Shown piece after piece: positions 1-15,211 of a stretch of DNA of 34,624 nucleotides. Numbering within the stretch: the stretch's first letter is position 1; each line of letters starts with the position of its first letter. The translations under genes were made by a program, and so were the position numbers. Origin of the DNA: Desulfotomaculaceae bacterium (GTDB taxonomy: Bacteria > Bacillota > Desulfotomaculia > Desulfotomaculales > Pelotomaculaceae); the NCBI GenBank assembly GCA_028696455.1, contig JAQVGZ010000019.1:1-34624 (forward strand), read 5' to 3'. The notes below the pieces were generated by a model. The model saw only the letters and a program-made list of their open reading frames with translations, had not been told where the DNA came from and did not search any database.

Positions 1-248
1 GCTGCGAGGGCAGGGGTGAAGCAAATGAGAGCCCGATCGGCTATATCCCAAAGGCAAATGCCCTTAACATGGAAGGGCTGGATTTAGCGCCCGGCACGGT
101 TGAATATTTACTTGGTGTGGAACGGGAAATTTGGATAGAGGAATTAAATGGGCTGGTACCTTTCTTCAAGAAGTTCGGTGAAAGGTTACCAAAAGAAATC
201 ATGGATGAGCATCAGGCTACTTTAGGGCGTTTAAATCGTTATTATTAG
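1..248 (+). CDS. pckG: Phosphoenolpyruvate carboxykinase (GTP), C-terminal end only (5' cut by window)
   Basis: The frame beginning at base 3 is open from the window edge and stops with TAG at 246-248, giving 81 residues. The start CEGRGEANESPIGYIPKANA matches the conserved stretch near the C terminus of GTP-dependent PEP carboxykinases (family pattern EA.E.PIG..P). The remainder, with GLDL, a region ending in LNGLVPFFKKFGERLP and a basic tail, fits the C-terminal helical segment of that family. The enzyme converts oxaloacetate and GTP to PEP and CO2 in the cytoplasm, in gluconeogenesis or anaplerosis. Substrate and nucleotide-binding motifs lie outside the window, so catalytic integrity cannot be judged. 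No clear terminator follows it. Confidence 0.85.
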   Translation, partial: CEGRGEANESPIGYIPKANALNMEGLDLAPGTVEYLLGVEREIWIEELNGLVPFFKKFGERLPKEIMDEHQATLGRLNRYY

Positions 249-3146: not shown

Positions 3147-4115
3147 ATGAAAATTAGATTTGGTTATGTAGCAATGTCGACTATGCTTAAAAACGCCTCT
3201 CCTTCCCGAACCGTAACTGCAAAGGCATATCGCCAGTTGGCTGAAAATAATCCTGAGGCAGCTAAAAATAAGGTCCGCAGGGCAGGCTCTGAAAACCTGT
3301 TCAATACCCTGCGTATATTAAGGCATAACAAGGCCTACGGGGTGGCAGTATACCGGTTTTCTTCCAAGATCATACCACTTGCCACTCACCCACTTCTGGC
3401 AGACTGGAACTATACTGAAGACTTTCGGGATCAGCTGACGACAATAGGCGATTTTGTTAGGGAAAACAACATGAGAGTTTCTTTTCACCCGGATCATTAC
3501 ACCTTAATTAATTCACCGAAGGAAGAGGTCTTTTTATCCTCTCTAAAAGACCTGGAACATCACTGCCTGCTTTTTGAAGAGATGGGCCTGAGTCAGCACG
3601 CCAAACTGGTTATGCATGTCGGGGGAGGTTATCAGGACAAAGAAAATTCTCTAGAGCGTTTCCAGGAAAATTGGAAGCGATTGACCAGGCGGCTCACGGA
3701 GAGATTGACCCTTGAAAATGACGATAAAACCTTCACTGCTAAAGACGTTCTTTTATTATGCAACAGGTTATCTCTGCCAATGGTACTGGATCTTCACCAT
3801 TTTAAATGCAACAACGAAGGAGAAACCTTAAAAGATTTACTACCGCTAATTCTCTTAACCTGGAATAACACAGACTTACCGGCTAAATTTCATATTTCAA
3901 GTTCGAGGAACCAGGTAGACTTCCGAAGTCATCATGATTTTGTTAACCCGGAAGATTTATACCCGTTTCTTAAGTTGGCACGTGAAATAAATGTTAACAT
4001 TGACGTAATGGTTGAGGCCAAGCAAAAAGACCGGGCCATGTTTCAGTTGGTAAAAGAATTGTCAGCTTATCCATTGATCAAACAAATAAATGAAGCTACC
4101 TTGTTTTTTAATTAA
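3147..4115 (+). CDS. uvsE: UV damage endonuclease UvsE (UVDE)
   Basis: 322 residues, close to the normal length for bacterial UVDE. The enzyme nicks DNA directly 5' of UV photoproducts and starts alternative excision repair. It has a TIM-barrel fold with metal ligands on the strand ends. Matching family segments are MKIRFGYVAMS at the N terminus, SFHPDHYT, MHVGGGYQDK, LENDDKTFT, VLDLHHFKCN, AKFHIS (the Lys that is carboxylated in the characterised enzyme, and a His ligand), FRSHHDFV and MVEAKQKD (Glu ligand). The equivalence of individual residues is from memory of the Thermus enzyme. A Shine-Dalgarno sequence (AAAGAGG) lies upstream, with TATAAT at 3118-3123 as a possible -10 box. In a spore former it could help repair UV-damaged spores. 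A decayed copy of the 3' end lies at 7667-7924. Confidence 0.93.
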   Translation: MKIRFGYVAMSTMLKNASPSRTVTAKAYRQLAENNPEAAKNKVRRAGSENLFNTLRILRHNKAYGVAVYRFSSKIIPLATHPLLADWNYTEDFRDQLTTIGDFVRENNMRVSFHPDHYTLINSPKEEVFLSSLKDLEHHCLLFEEMGLSQHAKLVMHVGGGYQDKENSLERFQENWKRLTRRLTERLTLENDDKTFTAKDVLLLCNRLSLPMVLDLHHFKCNNEGETLKDLLPLILLTWNNTDLPAKFHISSSRNQVDFRSHHDFVNPEDLYPFLKLAREINVNIDVMVEAKQKDRAMFQLVKELSAYPLIKQINEATLFFN

Positions 4116-4157
4116 GAACGCTATTTCTGTTTTAGCGGGGGCAAATGCTGCCCGCTG

Positions 4158-4369
4158 CGGCCTTGGGGCAAAGCTTTTGTTGCTGAAGCCCCTGTCGTTT
4201 TGATCTTTTTCGCCCTCCCCTTAACTCTGCAAAAATATGGTGACGTGGAAGCAGGATTTATTCCACACAGGACGCGACCACTGCCTATACTTACGCGATG
4301 CTTGCTGCCGCATCACTTAATCTTGCCACCATCTGGGTCGGCGCCTTTCACGACAAAGAAGGGTTTTAA
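4158..4369 (+). pseudogene. Nitroreductase-family remnant with frameshift
   Basis: Two frames together give the C-terminal half of a nitroreductase. Frame one from 4158 reads PWGKAFVAEAPVVLIFFA, the family FVAEAPVVL segment, and continues through LQKYGD. After a shift near 4250-4260 the next frame reads QDATTAYTYAMLAAASLNLA and then TIWVGAFHDKEGF, with a stop at 4367-4369. This second part is the QD.a.A..ml.Aa..gl.t.WigaF motif of FMN-dependent nitroreductases. The FMN-binding N terminus is absent. It lies just downstream of uvsE in the same direction. I take it as a dead gene. The 332-base gap downstream of uvsE otherwise holds only the terminator at its end. Confidence 0.65.
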
Positions 4370-4412
4370 AAGCATTTTCTCCATAAGACAAGTCTCTGAG
4401 GAAAATGCTTTT
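4368..4412. terminator. Bidirectional terminator between the nitroreductase remnant and lipoprotein gene copy A
   Basis: A perfect 12-bp inverted repeat (AAAAGCATTTTC at 4368-4379 and GAAAATGCTTTT at 4401-4412) has A-rich and T-rich outer ends, so it can work in both directions. It lies 35 bases beyond the stop of the minus-strand lipoprotein gene. A similar but not identical hairpin follows the second lipoprotein copy at 11683-11726. Confidence 0.75.
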
Positions 4413-4447
4413 CTGTTAATAATGAATTGTTATAATAGCAATCACCA

Positions 4448-5380
4448 TTAAGCAGAAAGCCATTGCTTAACTTTCTCAATCACCTGTTGCCTCTCCTGAA
4501 TCACCTTGTCCGTTAGGGTATAGTTTTCATTCTTTAAGACTTCACGATAGCCGGAAAAAGCTTCGGCGAATTTTCCATTGGCTGACGTATCAAAATTTTT
4601 GTAGCTTTCTTGAAAATCTTTCCTTAAAACCTTGGTGTTATAAGCAAACGCCGGTGTATTGTTTAACCCGGATAAATAGAAATTTACATAGCGCAAATAC
4701 AGCTCCTCAATATCCGCCCGCTTTGCAGAGGCTGAATAGTTCCTAATATAGCTCTCCTGCGCTCCAATTCTTTTTAGTATTTCGTCAGGTGTGATCAGCA
4801 GCGCTGCATCGGCAGCAGGCGGGTTCTTGCTTTCTACAGCCATAATTGTATAGTAATTTTTCAGATCATCACTTAAATATGCATAATACTGTTGATAAAA
4901 TTGGTAATCAATCACTGGAAAATACATGCCTTCCGCACTGCGCGCCAGGTACCCCGTGTCCCTTACCTCTTCCAGCATTCTTTTAATTTCCGGATCTTTT
5001 ATTTGATCAAGCTGCTGCATGCTGAAGGAATAGCCGAACTCTTTATGCAGTCCATTGGGGATGGTTTTTGTCCATTTTTCCTCCTTACCCCCGGCAAACT
5101 GCTGGTCCAGTTCCTCTAAAGACTTTTTTTGCCTGGTCTCATAGCCGGTTACTAATTGGTTTGCACCTTCTTTGGTTACTTTGGAGATGTTGGTGTCGAT
5201 AAAGGCCAGGATTTCTTTTTCTGCCGCGTTTTCTCTCATCAACCTTTCAAATTCAGCAAGCACTGCCTGGTCCTGCAGCTTATCCTCACTTGCCGTACTG
5301 CCGGGCCCGGTACAGCCAAACAGAAAAACCACTACAGACAGGTAAGTCAGGATTAAAAACAAGGGTTGAACTATTCTCAT
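4448..5380 (-). CDS. Lipoprotein of unknown function, paralog A
   Basis: 310 residues. A type II signal peptide is clear: MRIVQPLFLILTYLSVVV, then the lipobox LFGC with Cys at residue 23, so the mature protein should be anchored to the outer face of the membrane. The rest is predominantly helical and charged, with no domain I recognise. A Shine-Dalgarno sequence (AAAGGAG at about 5388-5394) fits the ATG at 5380. It lies 48 bases downstream of the anti-sigma gene on the same strand and is probably the third gene of that operon, which would make it a candidate member of the stress regulon. A paralog at 11765-12697 is about 94 percent identical in protein by my reading, and a 338-base stretch is identical in DNA. 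Confidence 0.85.
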   Translation of the reverse strand: MRIVQPLFLILTYLSVVVFLFGCTGPGSTASEDKLQDQAVLAEFERLMRENAAEKEILAFIDTNISKVTKEGANQLVTGYETRQKKSLEELDQQFAGGKEEKWTKTIPNGLHKEFGYSFSMQQLDQIKDPEIKRMLEEVRDTGYLARSAEGMYFPVIDYQFYQQYYAYLSDDLKNYYTIMAVESKNPPAADAALLITPDEILKRIGAQESYIRNYSASAKRADIEELYLRYVNFYLSGLNNTPAFAYNTKVLRKDFQESYKNFDTSANGKFAEAFSGYREVLKNENYTLTDKVIQERQQVIEKVKQWLSA

Positions 5381-5428
5381 AACATACTCCTTTATAAAAC
5401 GTATTTACGGTGATGAATGTTATTTCTT

Positions 5429-6970
5429 TTAACGGGGGTCGTAACCGACAACCGACCAAATTCCCGTCTCGTCCTGCCGAACAAGCCGCTCCAGGTAGAC
5501 TTGTTTGATCGGTCCGCCGGTAACTTCCACCACGGCCTGAGCGCCGTTGTTAACTGCCAGTTTAAAAGCTGATGCCGGTATTAGGGGTTCGCCTTGAATT
5601 CCATCCGGCGTTACCTTTAAGTTAACAAAGGTCGTTGCCACTTGCAAGGGATCAAGCTGCCAGGGACTGCTGCCTCGATCCACTTGCTGCTGGTTGGCCT
5701 TGACAATCTCCAGGTCCACCGGAACCTTGACCTGAGCCCTGTTTAGCAGGTTCTGACCGTTATCCGGCAAGGTCAGGTCAGCCGCGATCTGACCGGCTAA
5801 CTCTACCCGCCGTATGCCATCGATCTGGATTTCCAGTCCCTCCTGCCGCCAGCGCAAACGTTCCCACCATACTTCCAGTGGACCGCCGGCAGCAGTACCA
5901 AGAGCGGAATTAGCGACCGGCTCGAAAGATTCCTGAGCGACAGTTTCTATAATTGTCGTATCACCGTAATCCAGGACGATCCGATCTTGGAAAGCAAAGA
6001 TGCGGCCAGGCGCTTCCTGCGGGAGCAGCGGTGTGAAATTGCTGATGACAGCTGCTTCCTGCACTGTAGCCACCAATTGCCCCGGATCTTTTTCTACCAC
6101 TGTATAGCCTTCGGGCTGTTGGTACGTAAATACATGGGGATCAATTGGCATATTGGGCTCAAAACTTGTAAAGGTAAATGTGGTCATCAGCGCATTTTGC
6201 ATTGCTGTTTGCAGCTGGACCGGCAGATTGGTTTCGGCATCAATCCATAAGTAATAAGGTAGACCACCAGGTGGTGAAATTTCCAGTTTTGTTGCCTGCC
6301 GGCCGGCCACTAGCTCCGTTCCTGCAACAGTGTGCGGGTACTGCTTGGCCCGCTTAGCTTCATCACGCAAATCAAAACCAGTTTTCGCCGGGTCCGGCGC
6401 TGGCGGCAGCAGGGCTACTTCCTTGCTTTGGGGACGAACCTGCCATTTCCGCTCGCCATTATTGACGGTTAAGGTACCATCGTCCTGCCGCATGGCATAT
6501 TTATCTCCCTCTGACCAAAGCTCCACCCGGCGTGCCAGCCATTCCTCCCCGGCGGCATTTCGGGAGCGCACCTCCAGGATGCCGTGATAGTTAGACAAGC
6601 TGACAACTGCTTTCTCCATAGCGTAAACCACATCACGGTTAAATAAGCCGGTCCAGCTTGTTAACACCGCAACTAATAATAACCCGGCGGCCAGGGCTAC
6701 AAATGGCCCAATCCACCTGTTACGCAAACGTCTCCCCCTTTGATAGTTACTGCTGTTATTTTCCTGGATTTGAACAGCCACAGCTTTGGCCAACCTTTTC
6801 GGGTACCCGGGAGCGGGCAGGGCAGGCTCTTTTAAAGTGCGGACCTGTAAAACTGTTGCCATCAGTTTTTCCAATTCCGGAGTGCCGGCCGCTAGCTGGC
6901 CTTTTTCAGGCTCTTGCTCCGCATTCAAGGCATCAATATAATCGGAAAGTTTGTTTTCCAGCTCATTCAT
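5429..6970 (-). CDS. Membrane anti-sigma factor with RseB/LolA-like extracellular domain
   Basis: 513 residues. Residues 1-85 are cytoplasmic and soluble, a likely sigma-binding region, although I see no clear zinc-binding H-x3-C-x2-C. One membrane segment lies at about 86-105 (GPFVALAAGLLLVAVLTSW). A large extracytoplasmic part follows. Its first section (about 115-290) has the LolA/RseB-like beta pattern: YHGILEVRS, VELWSEGDKYAMR, LEISPPGGLPYYLWIDAETN and MTTFTFTSFEPN. A second acidic beta-rich section reaches the C terminus. The gene starts 17 bases after the ECF sigma gene stop, the usual sigma/anti-sigma pairing. By analogy it holds the sigma factor at the membrane and releases it on an envelope signal. 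The signal and any protease are unknown. Confidence 0.75.
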   Translation of the reverse strand: MNELENKLSDYIDALNAEQEPEKGQLAAGTPELEKLMATVLQVRTLKEPALPAPGYPKRLAKAVAVQIQENNSSNYQRGRRLRNRWIGPFVALAAGLLLVAVLTSWTGLFNRDVVYAMEKAVVSLSNYHGILEVRSRNAAGEEWLARRVELWSEGDKYAMRQDDGTLTVNNGERKWQVRPQSKEVALLPPAPDPAKTGFDLRDEAKRAKQYPHTVAGTELVAGRQATKLEISPPGGLPYYLWIDAETNLPVQLQTAMQNALMTTFTFTSFEPNMPIDPHVFTYQQPEGYTVVEKDPGQLVATVQEAAVISNFTPLLPQEAPGRIFAFQDRIVLDYGDTTIIETVAQESFEPVANSALGTAAGGPLEVWWERLRWRQEGLEIQIDGIRRVELAGQIAADLTLPDNGQNLLNRAQVKVPVDLEIVKANQQQVDRGSSPWQLDPLQVATTFVNLKVTPDGIQGEPLIPASAFKLAVNNGAQAVVEVTGGPIKQVYLERLVRQDETGIWSVVGYDPR

Positions 6971-6987: not shown

Positions 6988-7521
6988 TTAAGCATGGTCC
7001 TCCAGGATTTTAGCCAATCCCTGTAAAGCCCGGTATTGGGCTGTGCGGACAGCGGCTTCCGTTTTTCCTGTAAGCTTGGCGGTTTCAGCTACCGAATAGC
7101 TTTTAATGATTCGCAAATCAAGAACGGTACGCTGGTCTTCACTTAATTTGGCTAAAGCATTTTCCAGCTGCAGACGCTGCGCAACGGCTTTTTGATGATC
7201 CATATGGGCAGTTTCTTCCGGATTTATTTCCTCAAAATTCACCGGCGCCCCCCGGCGTTTTTTTTGCCGCCAACGGTCACGCAAAACGTTTAGCGCTACG
7301 GTTTTCATAAAACCCAGGAAGTTGCCCTGGAGAGCCTGATGTTTTTGCAGATAGGTTAGTGTTTTAACATAGGTTTCCTGGGTAATATCCTCTGCCTCCT
7401 CCCGGTTTTGCACTTTAAAATAGATAAAGCGGTAGAGCGGTTCCCACGTGGCAGAGCATACCCGTTCAATTGCCTGGCGGTCGCCCTCTTTAGCCTTTTT
7501 AAGCTCTTCAACAGTAGTCAC
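6988..7521 (-). CDS. ECF-family RNA polymerase sigma factor
   Basis: 177 residues from the GTG at 7521 (VTTVEELKKAKEGD). Region 2 is seen in PLYRFIYFKVQNREEAEDIT and QETYVKTLTYLQ, and region 2.4/linker in GFMKTVALNVLRDRWRQKKR. Region 4 is the stretch from LSEDQRTVLDLRI to a helix-turn-helix SVAETAKLTGKTEAAVRTAQ. No C-terminal extension is present. The start is uncertain. A GTG at 7533 and a TTG at 7617 are in frame, but homology starts near 7521 and AAGAAGG at about 7533-7539 can serve it. It is the first gene of the sigma/anti-sigma/lipoprotein operon. The stress it senses cannot be read from sequence. Confidence 0.88.
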   Translation of the reverse strand: MTTVEELKKAKEGDRQAIERVCSATWEPLYRFIYFKVQNREEAEDITQETYVKTLTYLQKHQALQGNFLGFMKTVALNVLRDRWRQKKRRGAPVNFEEINPEETAHMDHQKAVAQRLQLENALAKLSEDQRTVLDLRIIKSYSVAETAKLTGKTEAAVRTAQYRALQGLAKILEDHA

Positions 7522-7666
7522 AAGTAGCTGCACCTTCTTTCCCGGCCGGTTAATTACATCTATAACAACGATTAAGTTATCCAAAACGTTACATGAAAAT
7601 CCTGGTGCCTGCCTCAAACCTTAAACCGGTTCTCCTTTGCCGGCACCGCTATTGTCTATATTTATT

Positions 7667-7924
7667 GTTTATCGCATCGCAAGCGCGAGAAGCTCAACAG
7701 ACAGCCGCAGTCATCATGATTTTGTCAACCCGGAGAATTTATACCCTTTTCTCAAGTTGGCGCGTGAAATCAACAAGGATATGGATGTAATGGTTGTAGC
7801 CAGGCAAAAAGACCGGGCTATGTTCCAGCTGGTAAAAGAACTGCCGGCATACCCCATGCTTAAACAAGTCAATGAAGCAACATTAAGTTTTAATAAACAA
7901 CAAAAATCTGGAATATTACCATAA
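7667..7924 (+). pseudogene. Decayed copy of the uvsE 3' end
   Basis: About 85 codons match the C-terminal quarter of the intact uvsE at 3147-4115. Clear matches include SRSHHDFVNPENLYPFLKLA, RQKDRAMFQLVKEL and a C-terminal QVNEATLSFN. DNA identity looks near 75-80 percent. Nothing upstream of about 7667 matches uvsE, so at least three quarters of the gene is absent. Key residues are changed: the K-x-H of AKFHIS is now VYRIAS, and the Glu of MVEAK is now MVVAR. It therefore could not be an active endonuclease. The next gene is the subtilase downstream. In the intact locus the uvsE 3' end also lies beside the lipoprotein operon, so the two uvsE pieces bracket that operon. Confidence 0.8.
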
Positions 7925-11682: not shown

Positions 11683-11726
11683 AAAAGCACTTCCCCATAG
11701 GACAGGGACCTGAGGAAAGTGCTTTT
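11683..11726. terminator. Bidirectional terminator after lipoprotein gene copy B
   Basis: AAAAGCACTTCC (11683-11694) pairs with GGAAAGTGCTTTT (11714-11726) with one bulged base. It lies 38 bases beyond the stop of the lipoprotein gene. It has the same outline and partly the same loop as the hairpin at 4368-4412, with matched base changes in both arms, so it was probably duplicated together with the gene. Confidence 0.75.
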
Positions 11727-11764
11727 AACCTGTTAATTATAAACCGTTTTAACAGCAATGACTG

Positions 11765-12697
11765 TTAAGCGGAAAGCCATTGCTTCATTTTTTCAATCAC
11801 CTGTTGCCTCTCCTGAACCACCTTATCAGTTAGGATATAATTCTCATTCTTTAATACCTCAAGATAGCCGGAAAAAGCTTCGGCGAATTTCCCACCGGCT
11901 GACGTATCGAAGTTTTTGTAGCTTTCTTGAAAGTCTTTTCTTAAAAACTTGGTGTTATAAGCAAACGCCGGTGTATTGTTTAACCCGGATAAATAGAAGT
12001 TTACATAACGCAAATACAGCTCCTCAATATCTGCCCGCATTACAGAGACTGGATAGTCTTTAATATAGCTCTCCTGCGCTCCAATTCTTTTTAGTATTTC
12101 GTCAGGTGTGATCAGCAGCGCTGCATCGGCAGCAGGCGGGTTCTTGCTTTCTACAGCCATAATTTTATAGTAATTTTTAATATCATCAGTCAAGTATACA
12201 TAATACTGTTGATAAAACTGGTAATCAATCACCGGAAAATATATGCCTTCAGCACTGCGTGCCAGGTACCCCGTGTCCCTTACCTCTTCCAGCATTCTTT
12301 TAATTTCCGGATCTTTTATTTGATCAAGCTGCTGCATGCTGAAGGAATAGCCGAACTCTTTATGCAGTCCATTGGGGATGGTTTTTGTCCATTTTTCCTC
12401 CTTACCCCCGGCAAACTGCTGGTCCAGTTCCTCTAAAGACTTTTTTTGCCTGGTCTCATAGCCGGTTACTAATTGGTTTGCACCTTCTTTGGTTACTTTG
12501 GAGATGTTGGTGTCGATAAAGGCCAGGATTTCTTTTTCTGCCGCGTTTTCTCTCATCAACCTTTCAAATTCAGCAAGCACTGCCTGGTCCTGCAGCTTTT
12601 CCTCACTTGCCGTACTGCCGGGCCCGGTACAGCCAAACAGAAAAACCACTACTGACAGGTAAGTCAGGATTAAAAACAAGGGTTTAACTATTCTCAT
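11765..12697 (-). CDS. Lipoprotein of unknown function, paralog B
   Basis: 310 residues and close to collinear with the product of 4448-5380. It has the same type II signal peptide (MRIVKPLFLILTYLSVVV, then LFGC) and no recognised domain. The ATG at 12697 is chosen because an AAAGGAG sequence lies just upstream and the first paralog starts at the same residue. In-frame codons up to 12787 are not conserved in the other copy. Differences cluster in the C-terminal half (for example IKDYPVSVMRADI against IRNYSASAKRADI). It follows the beta-propeller gene by 135 bases on the same strand. This context differs from copy A, so the two copies may be expressed under different conditions. Confidence 0.85.
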   Translation of the reverse strand: MRIVKPLFLILTYLSVVVFLFGCTGPGSTASEEKLQDQAVLAEFERLMRENAAEKEILAFIDTNISKVTKEGANQLVTGYETRQKKSLEELDQQFAGGKEEKWTKTIPNGLHKEFGYSFSMQQLDQIKDPEIKRMLEEVRDTGYLARSAEGIYFPVIDYQFYQQYYVYLTDDIKNYYKIMAVESKNPPAADAALLITPDEILKRIGAQESYIKDYPVSVMRADIEELYLRYVNFYLSGLNNTPAFAYNTKFLRKDFQESYKNFDTSAGGKFAEAFSGYLEVLKNENYILTDKVVQERQQVIEKMKQWLSA

Positions 12698-12832
12698 GAC
12701 ATGCTCCTTTGTAAAGAGTATGGTTCGCATCATACAGAAACAGGCCACTAGCGTATTTATTGCGAAAGCATCTGCCAAGACCGTCACCAGCAGAGGAACC
12801 TATGCAATTGCTTTCGACGCGGAGCCACTACA

Positions 12833-15211
12833 TTACTTTAGCTCCACCGTACTTATTTCAGCCAGGCTGTCTAAGCTGTTTGCCCGGATATATTTCCCCG
12901 ACAGGGTATATAACACGTCATCAATATATAGGACCCTGCTAATATTTTTTTCGCTGTCATACCAATAACTGCCGGCCTTCTGATAATCCTGATCTGAAAT
13001 GTGGGTGATCCGCCCCTTGAGCTTAAAGCCGTCAGTCAAATCTATATTATACACATAGGCTCCCTGATAGATAAACTCGCCATAAGCTGGGAAGCCCCCC
13101 TGTACTTCACTGCCCTTCACCTCCGAGACGCTGACGGGAAAGGCCAGCAGATTTTTATCCCTGGCAAACAGCAAAGCCTTGTGGTTATACAATAACTCGG
13201 AATCCGTACCCCAATCGCCTATTTTTTCTACAAACATTTCTTTGGGATTGGTTACATCCGTTACATCAAAGATGGCCATTTTCATACCGGTATAGTAAGC
13301 CATACTGTCGACTTCGCCCTTACCACCCTTTTGCCCGAGCTCAATGGTATCCTTGCCAAAGCCGATCACGTGGTCCTCGTCATAGGGGTGCAGGTAATTA
13401 CTATATCCTGGTATTTTCAATGCACCAAGAATTTCGGGCTGACCAGGGTCTTTTAAGTCAATCACAAACAACGGGTCCACTGTTTTAAACGTCACCATAT
13501 AAGCCCGGTCTCCGGTGAATCTTACGGAGTAGATTCTTTCCCCGGGTGCAATATTCTCCAGCTTGCCGGTTATATTCAAGGACTCACCCAGAACATACAT
13601 ATTATTTTTTGATGTATGTTCGTCACTTCGCCAAATTTCGCCTTTGGTTGTGGCAATCCGGAAGTACCCGTTATACTCATCCATTGAAAACTGGTTTAGA
13701 ATGGTCCCCGGCACTTCTCCTTTGGTAGAGTAAGTTAATTTTCCGTCATTCATGGCGAATTTATAAATTCTGGTATTATTCCTGTCCACAGCAGGCCGGG
13801 GCATAGGCAAAAACCCCGTCTTATCTTCCATTATTCCATATTGATAACTGGTTACCGCCACGTATAGATTCTCCGTCGAAACATAAACATTCTCACCGGA
13901 ACCGAGGATAGTGTTAATATCCGCCTTTTTCTCCGGCCGGTCCAGGTTTAAGCCGGCCACAAGGAGGTAATTAGGCTGCACAGCATCAGGGAAACACTTG
14001 ATGTTGCCATAATCGATATCTACAAACTCATCGCCTGCTGCTGTATCCCGGTAGAAAGGCTGCGGGTTCTCTATCTCTCTCATGGGGTAGTAATAAATAC
14101 TTCTGTTGACTACCAAGTAAAATGATGAGCCAATTTTGCGGGAGGAAACATATCTTCCTCCAAGATCCAGTTCACGCACCTTGTTGATATTTGTCTTGTC
14201 ACTGATATCATAGACAATGGCGCTGACCAGTTCATGCTGGTAAGGAGGAGGGTAAATCTCGGTACTTATTTTTTTGCTGTCTTCCCGCATAATGATCGGC
14301 ATGTCCATGTACACACTGGTTTGGCCAATCACAATCATGTTCTTTTCATCCACGTACAATTCGCTGGGGGAAAAGTTTTTCCCGGCAAAGTCAATGGTGT
14401 CTACTATCTCCATGTCGCTGGCAGGGTAGGCCTTGGCGATTACCACCCGCTGCCCGTTGACCATATAAATATAACTGCCGTCGGTTTTAACAAGATCAGC
14501 CTCATCCACACCCTCGACCTGGACATTGGTTTTAGAATAATCAGCACCGCCAGCCCCCGCCGCTGACTGCGCCGTATCCGCCATTTCCTTTCTCGCGCCC
14601 TGGTTCATCATTACCGATGGAGCACCACTGCGTCCTAGGCCTGAAACCTTATCCTGAGAATTAGCCAGCAGGTTCTTCAGGTTTTCGTAATTGCCTACTA
14701 CCGGCAGGTCGCTGCTTTCCGACAGGGGCTTGGGCAAATTGCCTGGAGGGCCAACCAGCACGCTCTGGTTCTCTTCGTCCCAGCCCACCTCATACCCAAG
14801 GGCTTCAGCCAGCCAGCGGGCAGGCACAAAGACCCGGTCACCCGCCAGCACGGGCACAACATCCATCGTCCGCTGCTGCTCTCCCACAGATAATAAGTTG
14901 CTGCCTACAGTCATCCGGATCGCTGAGCCAGCGGGGTTAAAGGAAACTGTTTGCGCCACATCATCCCAGATTATATTTTCATCCGGGATTCCCAGCGCCC
15001 GGCCGAGAAACCGCACAGGAACATAGGTCCGGCTGCCTTGAATAAATGCTGGAACATCCATGGCAGTGGCCTGGCCGTTACTGATATACATTTTTTGGCC
15101 GACCAAAAAAGTTGCCTGATGCTGGTTCAGCGCGTGCCCTTTTGGCTGAAGCCAGGGTATAAAAATTACTGAGAGGGCTAAAAACAAAACTAAAGCAATA
15201 AATTTTTTCAC
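12833..15211 (-). CDS. Secreted beta-propeller protein with copper amine oxidase-like N-terminal domain
   Basis: 792 residues. A signal peptide (MKKFIALVLFLALSVIFIPW) is followed, at about 30-155, by a copper-amine-oxidase-like N domain with two repeats (VPAFIQGSRTYVPVRFLGRALG and VPVLAGDRVFVPARWLAEALGY). This is a common stalk module in clostridial surface proteins and does not itself imply oxidase activity. From about residue 225 the protein matches the Beta_propel family: NVQVEGVDEADLVKTDGSYI, then repeats such as VSAIVYDISD, LFVIDLKDPGQPEILG and MAIFDVTDVTNPKEMFVEKI. The role is unknown, probably an envelope binding or scaffold protein. The start is GTG at 15211, with AGAGGTGG just upstream. 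The lipoprotein copy B follows and may be co-transcribed. Confidence 0.85.
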   Translation of the reverse strand: MKKFIALVLFLALSVIFIPWLQPKGHALNQHQATFLVGQKMYISNGQATAMDVPAFIQGSRTYVPVRFLGRALGIPDENIIWDDVAQTVSFNPAGSAIRMTVGSNLLSVGEQQRTMDVVPVLAGDRVFVPARWLAEALGYEVGWDEENQSVLVGPPGNLPKPLSESSDLPVVGNYENLKNLLANSQDKVSGLGRSGAPSVMMNQGARKEMADTAQSAAGAGGADYSKTNVQVEGVDEADLVKTDGSYIYMVNGQRVVIAKAYPASDMEIVDTIDFAGKNFSPSELYVDEKNMIVIGQTSVYMDMPIIMREDSKKISTEIYPPPYQHELVSAIVYDISDKTNINKVRELDLGGRYVSSRKIGSSFYLVVNRSIYYYPMREIENPQPFYRDTAAGDEFVDIDYGNIKCFPDAVQPNYLLVAGLNLDRPEKKADINTILGSGENVYVSTENLYVAVTSYQYGIMEDKTGFLPMPRPAVDRNNTRIYKFAMNDGKLTYSTKGEVPGTILNQFSMDEYNGYFRIATTKGEIWRSDEHTSKNNMYVLGESLNITGKLENIAPGERIYSVRFTGDRAYMVTFKTVDPLFVIDLKDPGQPEILGALKIPGYSNYLHPYDEDHVIGFGKDTIELGQKGGKGEVDSMAYYTGMKMAIFDVTDVTNPKEMFVEKIGDWGTDSELLYNHKALLFARDKNLLAFPVSVSEVKGSEVQGGFPAYGEFIYQGAYVYNIDLTDGFKLKGRITHISDQDYQKAGSYWYDSEKNISRVLYIDDVLYTLSGKYIRANSLDSLAEISTVELK

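Follow-up and report, generated by a model that had tools for sequence, protein, structure and literature searches.

Probable partial gene conversion between duplicated putative lipoprotein genes in a Desulfotomaculaceae genome

Why do two putative lipoprotein genes on one bacterial chromosome share 338 bp without a single mismatch when much of their remaining length has diverged? The genes, referred to here as copy 1 and copy 2 (Table 1), are direct repeats about 7 kb apart in the stretch of DNA that we analyzed (the window), which is the whole of contig C71 (34624 bases) from a draft genome of 2.69 Mb in 167 contigs. Their proteins are 94% identical over 310 residues, and a protein search and a DNA search of this genome returned two matches each, with no third copy. 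A preliminary description of the window had proposed recent conversion or partial recombination, or else strong N-terminal selection. In our analysis, the copies are best explained by duplication of the gene and a recent, partial conversion thereafter (probability about 0.8), and the mosaic of differences, the permutations and the comparison with a congener all support the first of the two proposals.

Table 1 Positions of the lipoprotein copies, the putative tracts and neighboring features in the window
Feature	Position	Strand	Remarks
Lipoprotein copy 1	4448..5380	-	310 codons; starts 48 bp behind the stop of the RseB-domain gene
Lipoprotein copy 2	11765..12697	-	310 codons; gene order as for the single close copy in G002
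Putative conversion tract, copy 1	4944..5281	-	whole codons 34-145; identical to 12261-12598
Putative conversion tract, copy 2	12261..12598	-	identical to 4944-5281
Second mismatch-free run	4744..4847	-	104 bp; may mark a smaller or an older tract
Duplicated block around copy 1	4368..5404		93% to 11683-12721
Duplicated block around copy 2	11683..12721		93% to 4368-5404
MucB/RseB-domain protein	5429..6970	-	just upstream of copy 1; Pfam MucB_RseB, E = 6e-8
ECF-type sigma factor	6988..7617	-	adjoins the RseB-domain gene
Copper amine oxidase N-domain / beta-propeller protein	12833..15211	-	upstream of copy 2
UvdE-type UV endonuclease	3147..4115	+	full length
3' fragment of a second UvdE gene	7699..7901	+	79% identical to 3917-4119; between sigma factor and subtilase

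Distribution of differences between the copies

Mismatch-free runs at register +7317 reached 338 bp at most (4944-5281 = 12261-12598), exactly as first described, with no mismatch even at third codon positions. The next runs at this register were 104 bp (4744-4847) and 53 bp (5283-5335), and all 212 exact 127-mers present at two places in the window belonged to the 338-bp run, the first at (4944, 12261) and the last at (5155, 12472). Outside it, the copies differed at 43 of 496 sites in the 3' part (4448-4943), at 3 of 99 sites in the 5' end (5282-5380; positions 5282, 5336 and 5368) and at 5 of the 24 bp preceding the start codon. The 3' noncoding flank differed at 17 of 79 ungapped sites (0.22; 62/79 identical), close to the uncorrected divergence of silent sites in the 3' part (24/101.8 = 0.24).

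By Nei-Gojobori counting, codons 146-310 carried 24 silent and 19 replacement differences, which bears out the earlier statement that both kinds occur near the 3' ends. Silent differences between the copies amounted to 24.0 per 101.8 sites in codons 146-310 and 1.0 per 24.7 sites in codons 1-33, versus 0 per 68.0 sites in the run, codons 34-145 (run vs 3' part, Fisher P = 1.7e-6 on rounded counts). For codons 146-310, Ks was 0.283 and Ka 0.050, and both copies look as though they have been kept as genes (Ka/Ks in the 3' part 0.05/0.28).

When the 46 differences were shuffled over the 933 positions, no 338-base run appeared in 50,000 trials. A GENECONV-like permutation (GENECONV itself was not used), set up as a three-way comparison including the congener G002, gave a longest concordant run of 53 of the 186 polymorphic sites, a length reached in none of 100,000 shuffles; when the comparison was restricted to strictly silent codons, the run comprised 30 of 83 sites and was matched in 93 of 100,000 shuffles (P ~0.001). 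The identity block is thus longer than chance allows for the polymorphic sites, and it lies inside a longer, diverged homologous pair, both of which are hallmarks of interlocus gene conversion. An even spread of differences, named in the preliminary description as the pattern that would speak against its reading, is excluded by the silent counts together with the permutations. The lack of change at all 68 silent sites sets an upper 95% bound of 0.043 on the silent divergence accumulated after the event, some 18% of the raw value of 0.236 measured outside the run.

The edge of the tract at 5281 is soft. Positions 5282-5380 differed more than the run (P = 0.011) and did not have clearly fewer differences than the 3' half (P = 0.06), and the tract may have ended at 5281 or may have reached the start codon and acquired three changes later. 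For its place in the 3' half, the run at 4744-4847 is also unexpectedly long (P about 0.001, for a run picked after looking), which hints at a further small tract.

Silent-site control and competing histories

We compared the copies with the single close copy in G002, a congener that matches Pelotomaculum sp. PtaB.Bin104 (MVQL01000244.1). Our comparison set comprised one genome per species, G002 being one of two from the same genus; G002 was used for the counts and G001 as a second, nearly saturated check. Ks to G002 was 0.743 in the run, and 0.831 (copy 1) and 0.907 (copy 2) in the 3' part. Silent sites differing from G002 numbered 31.8 of 67.5 in codons 34-145 and 53.5 of 101.7 in the 3' part of copy 2 (Fisher P = 0.53, rounded counts). 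The silent distance to G001, which is near saturation, was 1.49 in the run, and 2.03 and 2.21 in the 3' part. The run is thus slightly less diverged from G002 than the 3' part, yet without silent conservation. Since its silent distance to G002 is 0.74, against 0.83-0.91 in the 3' part, conservation is not the cause of the identity, and a block of identity that lacks silent conservation in an outgroup is again characteristic of interlocus gene conversion.

In the history that we favor, only one lipoprotein gene would have existed at first, standing where copy 2 is now. It would have been duplicated, probably after the split from G002, and the new copy would have come to lie behind a pair of ECF sigma and RseB-domain genes, with the junction near the ribosome-binding site of the copy and at the 3' end of the pair. 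While purifying selection acted on both copies, their silent distance would have grown to about 0.28. Homologous repair between the direct repeats, presumably non-reciprocal, with RecA-type enzymes involved and with duplication preceding conversion, may then have overwritten some 340-440 bp in the 5' half of one copy with the sequence of the other, which would leave that stretch identical and the remainder with its older divergence. Placed by G002, 21 of the differences between the copies fell on copy 1 and 18 on copy 2, with 7 unclear; this even placement gives no usable signal of the donor copy.

The locus is an ordinary, well-supported natural case of a known process, partial gene conversion between paralogs. 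For gene conversion between tufA and tufB of Salmonella, a processivity of about 0.998 per base has been reported (PMC5485169). As in that system, two paralogs on one chromosome are involved, with continuous blocks transferred inside the gene and tract lengths of similar scale, as deduced from the processivity of 0.998; a tract some 340-440 bp long would be compatible with this value. Unlike the lipoprotein copies, which are 91% identical in the 3' part and only partly homogenized, the Salmonella tuf genes are nearly identical throughout (PMC5485169), and conversion of the lipoprotein genes is deduced from sequence rather than measured. In chromosomal cassettes of Salmonella, likewise repeats on one chromosome but engineered rather than natural paralogs, recombination is reported to be RecA- and RecB-dependent, with direct repeats recombining on average 2.2-fold faster than inverted ones (PMC8262849). 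A search of the literature on gene conversion in Pelotomaculum found no related report. The pair is a clear natural example of partial homogenization in bacterial paralogs, and a warning that whole-gene trees or duplication dates would blend two histories.

A mosaic of near-identical and diverged halves would likewise result if the duplication were recent and a related strain had since supplied a diverged allele that took the place of the 3' half in one of the copies. We consider such a replacement distinctly improbable: the noncoding flanks are diverged on both sides (17/79 on the 3' side, 5/24 on the 5' side), so that two or more replacements would be needed. The 3' halves of both copies are also about equally far from G002 (0.83, 0.91), although a donor of the same lineage would match this too.

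Could the assembler instead have merged reads of two copies that truly differ in the run? The genome is a draft, and contigs C9 and C71 share exactly their first 127 bases, which fits de Bruijn assembly with an apparent k = 127; de Bruijn assemblers can flatten isolated differences. However, the same assembler separated the 91%-identical 3' halves, as well as the single differences at 5282, 5336 and 5368, and it is therefore unlikely to have merged the 5' half wholesale and nothing else. About 29 differences would be expected in the run (43/496 x 338), similarly dense rather than isolated, and the 338-bp repeat was spanned although it exceeds the apparent k = 127. Assembly error is thus an unlikely cause of the identity; at most a few isolated sites were probably flattened, which would leave the conclusion unaffected.

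Window 1-224 and positions 1-224 of L072 (contig C9) encode the same PEPCK C-terminus and are 98.7% identical, forming a second near-identical gene pair. A join of contig C23 to the window via the split PEPCK gene was considered and dropped, as PEPCK ends start two contigs, C9 and C71.

The somewhat fewer replacement changes to G002 in codons 34-145 (Ka 0.079 vs 0.10-0.11) and the slightly lower silent distances there (0.74 vs 0.83-0.91 to G002; 1.49 vs 2.0-2.2 to G001) would agree with selection, or a low local mutation rate, as what keeps these codons identical, but silent sites so heavily diverged from G002 (31.8/67.5, beside 53.5/101.7 in the 3' part) cannot yield 0/68 between the copies. 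The strong N-terminal selection raised in the preliminary description is not supported by this control, and we give such an explanation next to no probability.

Ancestral and derived places of the gene

As with copy 2, the single close copy of G002 sits between a LeuA-like gene and a beta-propeller gene, and the order subtilase - LeuA-like - lipoprotein - beta-propeller is common to both; the gene adjoining the G002 copy we take to be YjbQ-like. The RseB-domain protein encoded next to copy 1 is presumably an anti-sigma-like regulator, given its domain and its place beside the ECF sigma gene. The orthologous sigma / RseB-domain pair of G002 (87% identical DNA) lies ~13 kb from the lipoprotein copy on the same contig and has no lipoprotein gene behind it; a hairpin and a convergent gene, which we take to encode a transporter component, stand there instead. 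In a scan, this hairpin of 18 pairs, between the RseB-domain and convergent genes, resembled a terminator when read along the convergent gene's strand; on the other strand its T run belongs to the stem. In the window, homology of copy 1 to copy 2 stops near the ribosome-binding site, and no terminator-like site separating the RseB-domain gene from copy 1 turned up when 4100-5560 was scanned. Copy 1 is probably co-transcribed with the sigma / RseB-domain pair.

Because G002 shares the gene order of copy 2 and has no lipoprotein gene behind its RseB-domain gene, copy 1 is most simply read, from gene order and sequence, as the derived copy, captured into the sigma / RseB-domain operon. Loss of copy 1 in G002, rather than its gain in the lineage of the window, is possible but would need the window copies to have been homogenized from end to end since the split. 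The two copies may, improbable as we consider it, be evolving in partial concert under two regulons, in which case conversion would keep the copies alike in their N-terminal half and their C-terminal halves would specialize; the ectopic copy 1 would then have been captured as a third operon gene without the hairpin of G002.

The two UvdE sequences of the window (3917-4119 vs 7699-7901) differed at 24.3 of 38 silent sites and are silently far more diverged than the lipoprotein pair (24 of 102; P = 2e-5), about as much as UvdE is from G002 (P = 0.41). It follows that the history of the locus included more than one event, or that the lipoprotein genes were homogenized repeatedly. A single tandem duplication extending from the RseB-domain gene to the lipoprotein gene, followed by complementary gene loss, is attractive in that the single UvdE fragment of G002, a middle one, is flanked on the left as the full window UvdE is and on the right as the window fragment is. 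Such a duplication predicts equal ages, however, whereas the silent divergences of the UvdE and lipoprotein pairs are unequal, and it stands only if the lipoprotein block was homogenized again later. Separately, window 7620-7661 and 821-882 are 95% and 82% identical to L052 9865-9906 and 10461-10522, and are perhaps remnants of one open frame of G002; the neighboring G002 frame (L052 9135-9755) had no match in this genome in a search run without a positive control.

The lipoprotein family and its RseB-domain neighbors

The signal peptide of a lipoprotein ends in the lipobox cysteine. Both copies have LFGC at codons 20-23, a candidate lipobox in which F at -2 is atypical; G001 has LTGC. Neither copy matched a Pfam family, and NCBIfam gave no family for copy 2 and only sub-threshold ones for the G002 copy. 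A PDB sequence search with copy 2 returned one weak match (E = 0.025), and the structure model of the lipoprotein (mean pLDDT 43) was too poor for a fold search. For this unnamed family, the capture of copy 1 behind a sigma / RseB-domain pair offers a modest lead on function.

We searched 30 loci by tblastn with the RseB-domain protein of the window (E up to 1e-4, flanks of at most 1.5 kb). The RseB-domain gene lay just upstream of a member of the lipoprotein family in three of them: copy 1, G002:C186 and G015:C162. The sigma / RseB-domain pair of G002:C186 is shortened, the lipoprotein relative of G015:C162 is broken by stops, and both relatives are distant, with 37-40% identity. The arrangement thus recurs but is not general. 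In G003, an RseB-domain gene and a lipoprotein gene share one contig, with the lipoprotein gene upstream and another gene between them.
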